From: Methanobacteriota archaeon | Lineage (GTDB): Archaea > Thermoplasmatota > Poseidoniia > Poseidoniales > Thalassarchaeaceae | Direction of reading: 5' to 3' | Length of the DNA: 36,552 nt | Assembly (NCBI GenBank): GCA_002718215.1 | Contig: PBDV01000025.1 | Location: forward strand, 24,732 to 61,283 | The notes under the pieces: generated by a model | The model's input: only the letters and a program-made list of their open reading frames with translations | Database searches by the model: none | What the model was told of the DNA's origin: nothing | Shown: positions 2,246-7,923 of the stretch, piece after piece | How positions within the stretch are numbered: position 1 is the stretch's first letter | Layout: each line of letters opens with the position of its first letter | Position numbers and translations under genes: made by a program

Positions 2246-3235
2246 TCAGTGTCCTCTACGTCGAAATATAGCATCTGACAAACCCAATATTCCCCCATAC
2301 CACAAGGAAGCACTCCAAAGGATTTGAGTCCATTTGGTAAGGGAAAACAGCACGAAGATGAGTGTGGTTCCTGTAATTCCCCACCAATACGGCTTAGGAG
2401 TAAGAACTAGACCAAGACCGCACATTGAGAATCCAATGAGCAAAATCGGCAATAAGAAAACGACCTTTTCAGCATCACTAACAAAATCATGTTTCATAAT
2501 TGAACCACTAGGGTTTTTTACACCTTGAAAACCAAATCTTCTAACAATTCTGAAATGTGCTCGCGCATCTCTACATCTCTTCCTAAGAAATAACAAGAGT
2601 CCTTCCTCTGCCACATGTTGAACTAATGCAGTCGATTCATAGATGATTGACCCCCCACTCTGAATTAACAACAAACTAACTTCCATATCTTCAGCATGAT
2701 ACCAACATGGATTGAAACCACCAATTGCAATCAACGCTTCTCTACGAAACATAGAACAAGGGCCATTTGCCAATGTAACTAATCTTGTTCTTCGTTCATA
2801 TTTTCTTTGAATTGTTCGAGAACGAATTTTTGAAACACGAGTATTTCCTTCGGAAAAAATAGTTCTACCTGTTATCGCTACAACATTTTCACTAGTGTAT
2901 TCGTCATAAGCAGATATCATAGCTGAAATCCAATTCGAATGAGGGCGACAATCAATATCTGTAATTGCAACCCATTCTCCATTGGCTGATTCAAGAGCGA
3001 GTTGTCTACCTGCTGAAAGCCCAAGTGGTTCAGAACTAATAACAGAAATTTCGATCTCATGATCTAATTTTGAATCTCGAAAATTCAACATCTTCTCCAA
3101 TGTTCCATCCGAGGAGCCATCATCTACTGCAATAATTTCAATTGGCCTATAATCTTGAGAAACTAATGATGAAAAACACTGTTCAACCCAATTTTCAGCA
3201 TTCCGTGCACAAACCGTGATACTAACGAGAGTCAA
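2246..3235 (-). CDS. family 2 glycosyltransferase with C-terminal membrane helices
   Basis: This 329-residue GT-A glycosyltransferase transfers a sugar from an activated donor to an unidentified acceptor at the cytoplasmic face of the membrane. The N-terminus has the GT2 pattern: beta strand VSITVCARN, then IIAVDDGSSDGT at residues 34-45, and the metal/donor motif TDIDCRP at 92-98. Further on is GGFNPCWYHAEDMEVSL at about 172-188, the ED acceptor motif. Three hydrophobic helices occupy about residues 255-325 and should anchor it. Its ATG overlaps the stop of the upstream coaD fusion by 4 bases (ATGA), so the two are translationally coupled. The substrate cannot be read from sequence; surface glycan or N-glycan assembly is plausible. 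Confidence 0.88.
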   Translation of the reverse strand: MTLVSITVCARNAENWVEQCFSSLVSQDYRPIEIIAVDDGSSDGTLEKMLNFRDSKLDHEIEISVISSEPLGLSAGRQLALESANGEWVAITDIDCRPHSNWISAMISAYDEYTSENVVAITGRTIFSEGNTRVSKIRSRTIQRKYERRTRLVTLANGPCSMFRREALIAIGGFNPCWYHAEDMEVSLLLIQSGGSIIYESTALVQHVAEEGLLLFLRKRCRDARAHFRIVRRFGFQGVKNPSGSIMKHDFVSDAEKVVFLLPILLIGFSMCGLGLVLTPKPYWWGITGTTLIFVLFSLTKWTQILWSASLWYGGILGLSDAIFRRRGH

Positions 3236-4239
3236 GGAGTTGCCTCCTCGATGAATGCATCGAGGAAACGACGGGCTCGATGTTTAGCGTTAATATCGAT
3301 TGTTCTGACTACTAATCCTTCATTGGGTTGACCGTACATCAGAACACTATCAAGAGGCAACATGAGAATTAGTGGGATGGGAGCTAAATCTTCTTCTCCG
3401 TCTACATTGATAACAACTGATTCCTGATTGCTTGTTGCTTCAAAACATCCCTGCATCATACTGGCAGTCAACATTCCAGGCGGATTCTGAACCTCGATGA
3501 TACGATATTCATTCGTTCGAATTTGACTAGATTTTCCCCATTTCCTTCGTTGAGTTTGTCCATCGATAACTGAAATCCAGGGGATTCTACCTGATTCTTG
3601 CATTGCCAAAACGGTTACATCACCTACTGCAACGATAGGTACATCATCGGGAATTGAATTTAAGGCTGAATCCATAGCAATAGCAGTATTATCTTCTGGC
3701 CCTTTATGCAAAACACCCATAGGTTGCTTTAATTCATCATCAAGAACTTCTGGCATGCGAAAATTCGTATGAATTTCCCAATCTTTAATCCAATAATTTC
3801 CTGATTGATCAACTAAACCAGAACGAATCCGTGATGATGAAAGAATTTCTCCTTCTTCATCCAATACATGTTCAACGATTATTATTTTCAATGGTTCTAA
3901 TCCTCTTTTTTCCCTTATTGAATTGATTTCATTACAAGTAGAAACTGTTTCATTAGTACAACCAATTACTGAACATTCCTTCATAGAAATTGCAGGACCA
4001 AAACGATCTTCTAGAACGAAACAACTGGCATTTACTCCTTCTTCTTTGAGGAAAATTTCAAGATTTGAAAGCCGTACTTGAAGAGATTGGATTGAAGCAT
4101 TCTTCGATTTTACCATATTATCTGAAACAACATGAATTTGCAGATAGTTACATTCTGAAGCAGTTGCAAGAATGAGATTCTTGTGCCCAGAATGGAGGTG
4201 GTCGAACGTCCCCCCTAGGACCCCAACTGACTCGCCCAT
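3232..4239 (-). CDS. coaD: fused phosphopantetheine adenylyltransferase and GTP-dependent dephospho-CoA kinase
   Basis: The protein should catalyse the last two steps of coenzyme A synthesis. Residues 1-155 are an archaeal PPAT: GGTFDHLHSGH at 9-19 is the nucleotidyltransferase HxGH site, and SSSRIRSG at 134-141 is the family's second motif. Residues about 165-330 match DUF359, shown in Thermococcus to be a GTP-dependent dephospho-CoA kinase: VGDVTV at 205-210, VDGEEDL at 279-285 and YGQPNEG at 302-308. The fusion mirrors the domain order of eukaryotic CoA synthase with an unrelated kinase domain. The ATG at 4239 has no clear ribosome site. The GC-rich stem-loop region lies directly upstream. 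The downstream glycosyltransferase overlaps it by 4 bases. Confidence 0.92.
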   Translation of the reverse strand: MGESVGVLGGTFDHLHSGHKNLILATASECNYLQIHVVSDNMVKSKNASIQSLQVRLSNLEIFLKEEGVNASCFVLEDRFGPAISMKECSVIGCTNETVSTCNEINSIREKRGLEPLKIIIVEHVLDEEGEILSSSRIRSGLVDQSGNYWIKDWEIHTNFRMPEVLDDELKQPMGVLHKGPEDNTAIAMDSALNSIPDDVPIVAVGDVTVLAMQESGRIPWISVIDGQTQRRKWGKSSQIRTNEYRIIEVQNPPGMLTASMMQGCFEATSNQESVVINVDGEEDLAPIPLILMLPLDSVLMYGQPNEGLVVRTIDINAKHRARRFLDAFIEEATP

Positions 4240-4284
4240 ATCTACCGGTACACGGGCTCAGAATTGAAACATGCGTAGAAATGT

Positions 4285-4533
4285 GCCCCGGGGCGTAACT
4301 TCCTGTATCATCGCCGTAGCTCACAGGCTTGACCCTGCCCCAGGGCGTCTGTTGGACGGTGTGGTTGTCCCATGAATCATTCCATTCGGTCAACTGGGGA
4401 CCCATATACCGTCCAGCCGTCGTTTGCATCACGGATCATTCCAAATGGTCCCCGTGAACTTCGATCGACGGCGAAGTCCCCGTACGTGGTGCCGGGCATC
4501 ATCCTTCCTTCCGGCGAGGGAGGTCGTCAGCAC
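4285..4533 (-). ncRNA. candidate structured RNA: four tandem stem-loop modules in a GC-rich gene-free stretch
   Basis: The 351 bases at 4240-4590 carry no convincing gene and are strikingly GC-rich for this genome. They contain four consecutive nested inverted repeats. Module 1: arms 4489-4494/4528-4533 enclosing 4503-4509/4517-4523. Module 2: 4416-4422/4466-4472, then 4429-4434/4452-4457, then 4437-4440/4444-4447. Module 3: 4354-4360/4408-4414, then 4367-4371/4397-4401. Module 4: 4285-4294/4337-4346, then 4302-4306/4323-4327. Each module carries the same pentamer (ATGAT on the minus strand; plus-strand starts 4498, 4435, 4376, 4307), spaced 63, 59 and 69 bases. Two helices pair through G-U on the minus strand but would be C-A mismatches on the plus; one shows the reverse, so strand is only a preference. 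It could be a free RNA or a leader of the CoA gene. No family recognised. Confidence 0.5.
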
Positions 4534-4590
4534 GGTGTTGCCGTCGGGGCAAACGTAGCCAGTTCAGGGTGCAATATGAATTCATCGTGA

Positions 4591-7149
4591 TTAACGAGCA
4601 AATGAATTTCCTAGGCGTTCACCGATTGCTAATGTAATTTCAGAATCACCAGTAGAATCTTGTAATCTATGAAATGGAGGCCACGTATCCAAAGGACGAG
4701 TTAGCCAACCAACATATCGATGTGTCTTTCCATTTCTAGGTGATTTCTCTTCTCTAAAATCATCTAATGAGTCAATAATATCTGAGATATAATTGATTAC
4801 TTCAGAATGATTTGTTTCCAATGAAAGAAAACGTCGTAAACGATCTGCTAATGTTAATCTCAATTTAGGATGCTTTCCCTCAAAACCAAAAGGTAAGGGA
4901 ACATTGTGTCCTTCGGGTCGGAGAACGATAGCTGGCCATGGTAATGAATTGTTCAATATTATTCGTCGTGCTTCAGAGTGTTCTGTCATCATTGTTAACA
5001 TATCAGCAGAATGAGAACTCCACCATCTCCAAGGTAGATACTTCACAAACAATATCTGATTCTCAATGGTTGGTTGAGTTCCTCTTTCATTCCATTCCGA
5101 AAGAAGAATCCAAAGATGTAAATCGTGAGATTCGGGTAAAGACCAGGCGAGTCGTCTAATCCGTTCGGACATTTCATCGAAATCTCCTTGTCTGACATTT
5201 GGATGGATTTGCATAAGATACAAGACTCCTTCTAACGAGTCTGCACATCTAAAGGGTGGAGTTTCAAGCCAAGTATTTACACACCAACGAACTATCTCTT
5301 CCGATTCAGAAGGTTTCATCCAATGAACAATAGAAAGAAGACGGCCTGCAGCCCAACCTCGAATCTCTGAGTTAGATGCATACATCGCTAATTTCCTAAT
5401 TGTAGCTCTAGATTCCTGATTCTCAATAATTCGTTTTGAAACAATTTCGTTAAATGTTTCCATCCACAACTGAGGAACTATTTCCCATAAATCTACAATC
5501 CGGTCTAACTGAGTATGATGAGGAGAAATCAACATCGACCAGTGAGCAGGAATTCGATTTCCTAGTCTAACCCATCGATCAACCCTATTGGAGGGTATAG
5601 AAGAAATCCATGAAGCTAAGGGGTTGGCGGATTCAATTCGGTTTGAAAATACCTCGTCACCTTCAGGAAAAACAGATGAGGCGTACAACAATAATTCGTT
5701 ATTGTCGTCATTATCTACAGGTCGTTCTAAAACAGGTAATATCTCAGAAATTTGTTTTAACTCATCGACGTTTTCAGGTATTTTCCAACCTTTGGGGAGA
5801 ATTGGAGCTCTCCTAGTTTCTTCGCCAATATACAACGGTAAACTACGCCCATTAGGTTCCAATAGTCGGAGAAATGGAAGATCATGAACCTCATCAGGCA
5901 ATAAAATAGACATCCCAGAATCATTGATTTGTGACCAAGGCGCAATCAATAGACGAATTCTGTCATAACGATGTAATCGACGGGATAAAGATTCACTAAT
6001 TGGTTCAGGTAAATCTAATGAAATCCATTCAATCGATTGATGATTCATAATACTCAAAATCAATGCCTTTAGAGCTAGGGGGCCTAAACCATCTGTTACA
6101 ATTGATTCAGGTAGTTGTTCATTTAATTCAAGAAATTCTCGATTCCCCCAATCCTCTCGAAATCTTCTAACGGTGATATCTGGCAATCTTGAGGGTCTAG
6201 AAGTACGTCCACTGTCTATCCAATTATTTAGGAATTGAAGTCTAGAGCGTCTGGCTACTGGACGTAAACGCGGATGAATGAGTTCTATCCATTCCTCTAA
6301 TACTATTCGTGGAAGAGGACCCGGCAACGTCTGAATTATCGCCTGCCTTCCAATTAACAATGATTCATTGCTTGAATTTTTCATTAATTGGCTAGCTATT
6401 TCCTCTGACGTCGATGTACAAACCACTGAAGTAGAAGTCATTACTTCTGAACCCCCTCTACCTATCGAGCCAAGATACCAAGATCCAGGAGTTGATTCGA
6501 TTGAATCACTAACCGATTGTGATTCTAAGGATGAATTAAACCAACGTCCAATAGATAATCGATCAGAGGATTCACTGTCAACTAACCTTAGCCGAATTAA
6601 TCCGAAACCAGTTCTATCCCAATCCTCTATTGTTTCGAGATTGGATTCTCTGGGTGATGCTATTCTATCAAACGAATTAGAATCGTAATACCTTACATTT
6701 CTTTCTCTTGCTTCTGCAAGAATTGTTCTTCCATCAATAGTTGGGAGATAAATTAAGGGCGATGGTGGTTTTCTTGTTAACATCAATAAAACATCATTTC
6801 CGAGTACATCTATAATTTGATACTGTTCATCAACAATTGAATTGAAAGGTACTAATGGAATCCGAGATAATTCGTCTGACTCCAGCATTAAATGGCCTTT
6901 TTGAGTCAAATTTATTCTTCCTCCACGCGTACCTGATGAACTCGTTGAATGAACTAGTTCCTCCTCACGCATTTTCTTCAATTCTACTGAAACATGTGGG
7001 ACACGTAAGCCTGATTTAGTTGCAATTGAGGAAACTGTTCCCGAGCCTTCAGACAAAGTCAATAGCAATATTCTTCGATGGCGGCCCCTGACTTTTCGAC
7101 GGATTTTGGGGATTGACTCGCTCAAAATTTCCCCGCCCCTTGGAATCAC
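4591..7149 (-). CDS. large protein with N-terminal winged-helix domain, function unknown
   Basis: This is an 852-residue protein. Residues about 18-95 form a MarR/ArsR-like winged helix: a helix-turn-helix with SSIATKSGLRVPHVSVELKK, then a basic wing TRGGRINLTQKG. The remaining 750 residues are soluble, Trp-, Arg- and Ser-rich and mostly helical-looking, and I recognise no family. There are no membrane helices. The frame opens with GTG at 7149. A TATA-like sequence (CTATTATAG) lies immediately before it, so a leaderless start at TTG 7125, about 30 bases downstream of that box, is an alternative. The only other upstream gene is divergent. It may regulate transcription or couple DNA binding to a large effector or sensor region, but this is inference. 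Confidence 0.75.
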   Translation of the reverse strand: MIPRGGEILSESIPKIRRKVRGRHRRILLLTLSEGSGTVSSIATKSGLRVPHVSVELKKMREEELVHSTSSSGTRGGRINLTQKGHLMLESDELSRIPLVPFNSIVDEQYQIIDVLGNDVLLMLTRKPPSPLIYLPTIDGRTILAEARERNVRYYDSNSFDRIASPRESNLETIEDWDRTGFGLIRLRLVDSESSDRLSIGRWFNSSLESQSVSDSIESTPGSWYLGSIGRGGSEVMTSTSVVCTSTSEEIASQLMKNSSNESLLIGRQAIIQTLPGPLPRIVLEEWIELIHPRLRPVARRSRLQFLNNWIDSGRTSRPSRLPDITVRRFREDWGNREFLELNEQLPESIVTDGLGPLALKALILSIMNHQSIEWISLDLPEPISESLSRRLHRYDRIRLLIAPWSQINDSGMSILLPDEVHDLPFLRLLEPNGRSLPLYIGEETRRAPILPKGWKIPENVDELKQISEILPVLERPVDNDDNNELLLYASSVFPEGDEVFSNRIESANPLASWISSIPSNRVDRWVRLGNRIPAHWSMLISPHHTQLDRIVDLWEIVPQLWMETFNEIVSKRIIENQESRATIRKLAMYASNSEIRGWAAGRLLSIVHWMKPSESEEIVRWCVNTWLETPPFRCADSLEGVLYLMQIHPNVRQGDFDEMSERIRRLAWSLPESHDLHLWILLSEWNERGTQPTIENQILFVKYLPWRWWSSHSADMLTMMTEHSEARRIILNNSLPWPAIVLRPEGHNVPLPFGFEGKHPKLRLTLADRLRRFLSLETNHSEVINYISDIIDSLDDFREEKSPRNGKTHRYVGWLTRPLDTWPPFHRLQDSTGDSEITLAIGERLGNSFAR

Positions 7150-7414: not shown

Positions 7415-7672
7415 ATGAGCGAAAATTTGCGACATCTCATCAGATCTTACCTTCAATCCCGCCCACGCAATACTGCGGAAATCGTTGAATACGCACGCGC
7501 TAATATGGATGGAGATGGGACCAGCATCGAACAGATAGAAAAACTTCTGAAAAACGATGCCCAAGTAGTGCGAGTGGATTTAGTTCGAAGGAGTGGGGTG
7601 CTTTCTTCTGGATACCGAATATGTGAATGGGCCACAGTTGATTGGATGAAAAATAGGAGCGGAAAACAATGA
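7415..7672 (+). CDS. small helix-turn-helix protein, first of a paralogous pair
   Basis: This 85-residue basic protein resembles a compact winged-helix DNA-binding domain: an N-terminal helix (LRHLIRSYLQSRP), a recognition-type segment (NTAEIVEYA... GTSIEQIEKLLKND) and a wing ending SSGYRICEW. The same layout recurs in the next gene: LR..I..L, then N-T-EI, GT, a helix ending K-D, R-x-G-L-S and Y-IC-W. It has a strong ribosome site GGAGGTG 6 bases before the ATG. Its stop overlaps the next start by 4 bases (ATGA), so the two proteins are made together and may act as a heterodimer. The target is unknown. Confidence 0.75.
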   Translation: MSENLRHLIRSYLQSRPRNTAEIVEYARANMDGDGTSIEQIEKLLKNDAQVVRVDLVRRSGVLSSGYRICEWATVDWMKNRSGKQ

Positions 7673-7923
7673 GAACCACAAGACTTAGAGAACGAATAAA
7701 GAGATTTCTAGCTGAAAAAGGCGAGGCAAATACGACAGAAATATTGGAACATGTCAATACAACAACTAGACATGGAACTACACCTCAGCAGTTGGGGAAT
7801 GTTTTGTCCAAAGACAAAGATATTGAGAAGGTCTCTACTACCAAAAGAGGTGGAGCACTATCTGGAAGATATGATATCTGTGTTTGGAGACTTAGAGATC
7901 AAGGAATCGGCGATCTCCACTGA
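7669..7923 (+). CDS. small helix-turn-helix protein, second of a paralogous pair
   Basis: This 84-residue basic protein is clearly related to the preceding gene product. It shares the pattern LRERIKRFL, NTTEILEHV, HGTTPQQLGNVLSKD, RGGALSGRYDICVW, which covers nearly the full length. The fold is most likely a winged helix. Translation is coupled through the ATGA overlap at 7669-7672. It ends only 9 bases from the convergent nadA stop. Tandem duplication followed by divergence explains the pair. A role in transcription control or nucleoid binding is inference from the fold only. Confidence 0.75.
   Translation: MRTTRLRERIKRFLAEKGEANTTEILEHVNTTTRHGTTPQQLGNVLSKDKDIEKVSTTKRGGALSGRYDICVWRLRDQGIGDLH

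Follow-up and report, generated by a model that had tools for sequence, protein, structure and literature searches.

A four-hairpin RNA array related to HgcG/Pab40 box H/ACA guides in Poseidoniales and its predicted sites in 23S rRNA

Archaeal box H/ACA RNAs have been described as carrying one, rarely two or three hairpins each (PMC7991803; PMC3608112), the ACA lying 14-16 nt from the pocket in published guides (PMC7991803, PMC4652768) and the GA stem measuring about 10 bp in productive ones (PMC4652768). The closest described system is HgcG/Pab40 (RF00064), a three-hairpin RNA of Pyrococcus and Thermococcus. Experiments carried out in vitro show that Pab40 guides U2588 in P. abyssi, and the equivalent in T. 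kodakarensis is dependent on Cbf5, Nop10 and Gar1 (PMC6138745); U2588 is the target of Pab40.1, while the third motif, Pab40.3, guides L2016, the equivalent of U1915 (PMC4652768, PMC6138745). Judged by the pocket sequences, these two targets correspond to E. coli positions 2496 and 1915. The array analysed here, whose hairpins are designated H1 to H4 from the 5' end, resembles HgcG/Pab40 in the order and pockets of H2-H3-H4 and differs from it in a fourth hairpin at the 5' end, in the absence of an ACA box from H1 and H2, in having no direct Rfam match and in the target of the middle hairpin, which is L1932 in published work on P. abyssi but the A-loop in the prediction for H3.

Other described RNAs share single traits with the array. 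A. fulgidus Af4 is likewise a multi-hairpin H/ACA RNA and its last motif, closely related to Pab40.3, can target L1970 (PMC4652768), but it comprises three motifs (Af4.1-4.3), of which one targets 16S rRNA. The Haloferax Hvo1/Hvo2 guide also addresses helix-69 uridines (L1956/L1958, PMC4652768 numbering), although it has two motifs and its other target, L2621, is not among the sites considered here. Pyrobaculum H/ACA-like RNAs provide a precedent for non-canonical motifs (PMC4652768); they are devoid of a lower stem, whereas in our array the lower stems are intact and it is the ACA box that is absent from H1 and H2. Yeast snR191, snR46, snR10 and snR42, which guide 25S positions 2258, 2865, 2923 and 2975 (PMC8307265), are separate eukaryotic snoRNAs and are likened to the array by target position alone. 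A literature search covering few subscription journals retrieved no H/ACA RNA of Marine Group II or Thermoplasmata. Since the reviews give one and rarely two or three hairpins, an array of four is unusual.

The array lies in a block (4240-4590) of a 36,552-nt stretch of DNA, hereafter the window, and the block is flanked by two minus-strand genes (Table 1). An earlier note on this DNA had described the block as gene-free and GC-rich, which was borne out: no plausible gene was present among the open reading frames of 4240-4590, and GC content was 57% over the block and 60% over 4281-4554 versus 41% for the whole window. The block is present in a single copy in the genome, relatives are 67-92% identical, and its closest named relative comes from a Candidatus Thalassarchaeaceae MAG, that is, from Poseidoniales / Marine Group II. 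Our reading is that the block very probably constitutes the gene of a polyvalent box H/ACA RNA of about 275 nt, related to HgcG/Pab40 and with four predicted sites in 23S rRNA. RNase P or SRP RNA, to which GC-rich RNAs of AT-rich archaea usually belong, would be compatible with its size and GC content, but both were located elsewhere in the same genome (238 and 117 bits, respectively) and the block gave no such match at E up to 10; this identity, which we regard as having virtually no chance of being right, is refuted.

Table 1. Positions of the array, its elements and its neighbours in the window, followed by the predicted rRNA targets in E. coli numbering
Feature	Position	Strand	Description or evidence
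Probable four-hairpin box H/ACA guide RNA, HgcG/Pab40-like plus extra 5' hairpin	4281-4554	-	A1 alignment, pair counts, R1
H1	4478-4549	-	Pocket GGCAAC (4537-4542) / ACC (from 4490); lower stem CCCCG/CGGGG; ACA box absent
H2	4416-4472	-	Pocket AUCGAAG (4459-4465) / GCAA (from 4427); lower stem GCCGUC/GACGGC; ACA box absent
H3	4354-4414	-	Pocket AUGGGU (4400-4405) / CAACC (from 4367); lower stem GGACGGU/ACCGUCC; pair counts helices 6-7
ACA box of H3	4350-4352	-	15 nt from pocket; invariant in A1
H4	4285-4346	-	Pocket AGGGUCA (4330-4336) / GUUAC (4295-4299); 10-bp lower stem GCCCUGGGGC/GCCCCGGGGC
ACA box of H4	4282-4284	-	15 nt from pocket; invariant in A1
K-turn of H4	4307-4322	-	GA-GC-UACG-GC-GAU-GA-U, UACG tetraloop
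K-turns of H2 / H3	4433-4450 / 4375-4391	-	Equivalent to H4 K-turn
Promoter-like element CGATGAATTCATATT (BRE/TATA-like)	4573-4587	-	About 24-38 nt upstream of first stem
Fused PPAT (CTP_transf_like) + DUF359 kinase gene	3232-4239	-	Pfam, synteny
852-aa protein gene	4591-7149	-	Upstream neighbour of array
H1 predicted target	E. coli U2606		23S GGU[UU]GUUGCU; peptidyl-transferase region
H2 predicted target	E. coli U2496		UUGC[UA]CUUCGAU; peptidyl-transferase region
H3 predicted target	E. coli U2554, U2555 possible		GGUUG[UUC]GCCCAU; 23S A-loop
H4 predicted target	E. coli U1915		GUAAC[UA]UGACCC; helix 69 (intersubunit bridge)

The structure was modelled as 56 pairs on an alignment of 21 genomes (A1), with 500 shuffles and slid structures as controls. 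In A1, 91.9% of the cells were paired versus 79.6 +/- 0.6% in the shuffles, changes on both sides were found in 38 of the 56 modelled pairs and the covariation score was 0.397; none of the 500 shuffles equalled the pairing, the both-sided count or the covariation score. When the structure was slid by 1-3 columns the pairing fell to 29-51%. RNAalifold, run without a supplied structure, recovered identical lower stems as well as most pairs of the upper stems; 37 of its 57 pairs showed both-sided changes. Fold energy by itself was modestly unusual (z = -1.96, 10 of 200 shuffles folding equally well) and is weak evidence for structure; it is the comparison among genomes that establishes the modelled structure. 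The invariant columns of A1 were mainly those of pockets, K-turn GA pairs and ACA boxes. The four consecutive stem-loops previously proposed were thus confirmed on the minus strand, and the covariance analysis of homologues that had been suggested as a check came out in their favour.

A repeat protein had been argued against earlier, and the homologues agree: at most 5 of 34 were open in any of the six frames, so that no conserved open frame was found, and their lengths fell in all residues mod 3. On these two grounds a coding explanation was rejected. Judged from the comparative evidence, the block is a structured RNA gene on the minus strand.

The search of the window against Rfam gave no match, the block at E values up to 10 yielding only a chance snoR20, and no match was obtained for the Poseidoniales arrays L003, L176, L177, L190 and L191. 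A covariance model built for the array (R1) and used for genome searches matched the outgroup orthologue L196 over its full length with an E of about 1e-31, and L196 in turn matched HgcG/Pab40 over the whole model (1-276) at 92.7 bits, above the gathering threshold of 77. Because R1 links the array to L196 and L196 matches RF00064, the RNA of the window is a diverged HgcG/Pab40 H/ACA RNA; H2-H3-H4 is orthologous to the three-hairpin HgcG/Pab40, having diverged below Rfam detection. Of the suggestion that the block encodes an undescribed structured RNA, the structured part therefore stands, while the family is that of the box H/ACA guides; the Rfam check, negative for the window, is positive for its orthologue.

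Inspection of the hairpins revealed that all four consist of a lower stem, an internal pocket and an upper (GA) stem of about 10 layers, and that lower and GA stems covary. In the sequences of H2, H3 and H4 a K-turn with a 3-nt bulge and tandem G-A pairs is clear, the GA columns being invariant or nearly so; the H1 upper stem has GA/GA pairs and a UGA bulge but a longer apical arm (4494-4533). The pentamer ATGAT that had been noticed in each hairpin does recur on the minus strand, beginning at plus-strand positions 4307, 4376, 4435 and 4498 (spacings 69, 59 and 63), and represents the bulge of the K-turn together with the GA next to it. Pocket columns were invariant in A1 for H1 (GCAAC and ACCA, 21 genomes), H2 (CGAAG and GCAA) and H4 (GGGUCA), while the GA stem of H2 covaries (helix 4) and the lower stem of H4 is 99.5% paired with six both-sided pairs.

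In nearly all relatives, throughout the phylum, 15 nt separate the pocket from the ACA in H3, and 14-15 nt do so in H4. For H1, no ANA at 14-16 nt was found in the window or in nearly all relatives. For H2, an ANA (ACA or AAA) at 14 nt was present in 9 of 9 loci of the sister order (f3) versus 0 of 32 Poseidoniales loci. Each hairpin has the anatomy of an archaeal box H/ACA guide, and an ACA at the published distance accompanies H3 and H4 and is wanting in H1 and H2 of Poseidoniales. The L192 array (genome G102, family f2) stands apart from those of the other Poseidoniales checked in that both H3 and H4 lack an ACA at the customary spacing.

Targets were sought by scanning the complete 16S and 23S rRNA of a relative, the 10-layer GA stem setting the limits of the pockets and 300 shuffled rRNAs serving as control; the scan was not fully blind, pocket borders having been fixed after targets had been seen. 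E. coli numbers were assigned by alignment to rrlH, the local alignments being gap-free. Each hairpin returned a single best uridine in 16S+23S (Table 1), and shuffled rRNAs scored equally well in 36 (H1), 2 (H2), 4 (H3) and 4 (H4) of the 300 cases. An earlier scan with loosely bounded pockets had given a mixed ranking for H1 and for some variants of H3 and H4, which the 10-layer bounding resolved. Complementarity to rRNA flanking the uridine is strong for H2, H3 and H4 and modest for H1, whose pairing on the 3' side amounts to 3 bp; the H1 target is the weakest of the four predictions. In the 3' pocket of H1 (ACCA; 4478-4490) the fourth base is invariant yet mismatched, facing an A in the predicted target, and may leave room for another H1 target. 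In the case of H3, U2555 fits the pocket almost as well as U2554; the 15-nt ruler and the yeast site tip the balance towards U2554. In the 3' pocket of H3 (4358-4367) the second base varies by genus (CAACC, CUACC, CCACC) between invariant neighbours; it faces U2552 of the A-loop, where the target base is constant, and perhaps need not pair.

For comparison with yeast, Um2552 of E. coli is taken by us to be Um2921 of yeast. With the constant offset between these two, and with helix 69, the predicted positions 2606, 2496, 2554 and 1915 correspond to yeast 2975, 2865, 2923 and 2258. The table of PMC8307265 marks Um2921 as common with E. coli and the yeast pseudouridines 2975 (snR42), 2865 (snR46), 2923 (snR10) and 2258 (snR191) as conserved in human. 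This match lends partly independent support to the four predicted sites. The four hairpins together predict pseudouridines at four sites in the core of Poseidoniales 23S rRNA, the part that serves catalysis and contact with tRNA; in yeast, each of these positions is modified by means of a separate snoRNA.

Structure, conservation, guide anatomy, target complementarity and homology were computed, and from here on we infer expression, RNP assembly and the pseudouridine modifications. The array would have a promoter of its own and be transcribed on the minus strand; the K-turn of each hairpin would bind L7Ae and the hairpin would recruit Cbf5-Nop10-Gar1. By pairing with 23S rRNA, the unpaired pocket strands, two per hairpin, would flank a single uridine, which Cbf5 would isomerise to pseudouridine at the site predicted for that hairpin. 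H1 and H2 would work, if at all, without an ACA box. We lean slightly towards an archaeal H/ACA RNA of four units, one more than in those reviewed, in which H1 and H2 guide without ACA, perhaps being loaded from H3/H4 or by lower-stem stacking, so that a single transcript would serve two peptidyl-transferase sites as well as helix 69 and the A-loop. A less probable reading, though one with some standing, is that only H3-H4 (or H2-H4) is a working guide and that H1, perhaps also H2, is a degenerate spacer or a stabiliser of the RNA, as the missing ACA boxes of both and the 3-bp 3' pairing of the best H1 target might suggest; against it, the pockets of H1 and H2 are invariant while the stems covary, which points to purifying selection on guide sequences and not to decay. 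The preferred four-unit reading raises the question whether Cbf5 can use ACA-less hairpins when they are joined to ACA-bearing ones.

Cbf5 (TIGR00425) scored above the cut-off in five of the seven genomes searched (G015, G024, G153, G216 and G214) and was not found in the other two, G000, the assembly of the window (71% complete), and G006 (90% complete), both of genus g1; its absence there reflects either a gap in the assemblies or a genuine peculiarity of genus g1. In G015 and G024, cbf5 is directly downstream of a cytidylate-kinase-like (cmk-like) gene, named by eye.

Genome searches with R1 indicated that the array is widespread: it was found in 140 of 146 Poseidoniales genomes, in 16 of the 18 sister-order genomes that were re-searched and in 178 of a sample of 390 genomes from the phylum, where scores drop with distance and the weakest matches (about 20 bits and below), being little more than one hairpin or poorly aligned, are not to be over-read. 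H1 was recognised only in Poseidoniales. We infer that the ancestor was probably a three-hairpin RNA with ACA boxes and that the Poseidoniales ancestor would have gained the 5' hairpin and lost the ACA of H2. The HgcG/Pab40 range is hereby extended from Thermococcales to Thermoplasmata-type archaea (the phylum of the window), R1 detects an HgcG/Pab40-like RNA where Rfam does not, and an 'unknown RNA' of marine archaea is replaced by a concrete, testable function.

Of 34 relatives, 25 carried a TATA-like motif, TT[CG]A[ATC][AT], at -31..-22 relative to the start of the array, as against a mean of 1.6 and a maximum of 7 after shuffling. A scan for bacterial-type promoters and terminators found none; such signals are not expected to apply here. 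In all 41 Poseidoniales loci checked (the window, L023-L042 and L176-L195) the array is situated between the 852-aa gene and PPAT on the same strand, with a gap of only about 42 nt to the PPAT-kinase ATG in the window. This arrangement would suit the earlier proposal of a long 5' leader, a riboswitch-like element controlling the PPAT-kinase (CoA synthesis) gene, but the association is constant only within Poseidoniales: neither PPAT nor the upstream gene was near the array in any of the non-Poseidoniales loci (L160-L222). Moreover, the array shows nothing like a ligand pocket or an anti-terminator; its pockets are complementary to rRNA, and as an RNA it is orthologous to HgcG/Pab40. Since the array has its own TATA-like element and the synteny is confined to Poseidoniales, a stand-alone RNA gene fits better than a PPAT leader; the latter reading was not supported and is very improbable. 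Read-through from the array into PPAT is possible in Poseidoniales.

Elsewhere, the array neighbours an ftsY-like gene in G153 and a TATA-binding-protein gene in G216, both named by eye from translations. The 852-aa protein has a winged-helix-like N-terminal stretch with a weak HTH_5 match and no other Pfam domain. Further along the window, two adjacent small genes (7415-7672 and 7669-7923, plus strand) resemble tandem copies, and the first matches DUF3860 (PF12976).
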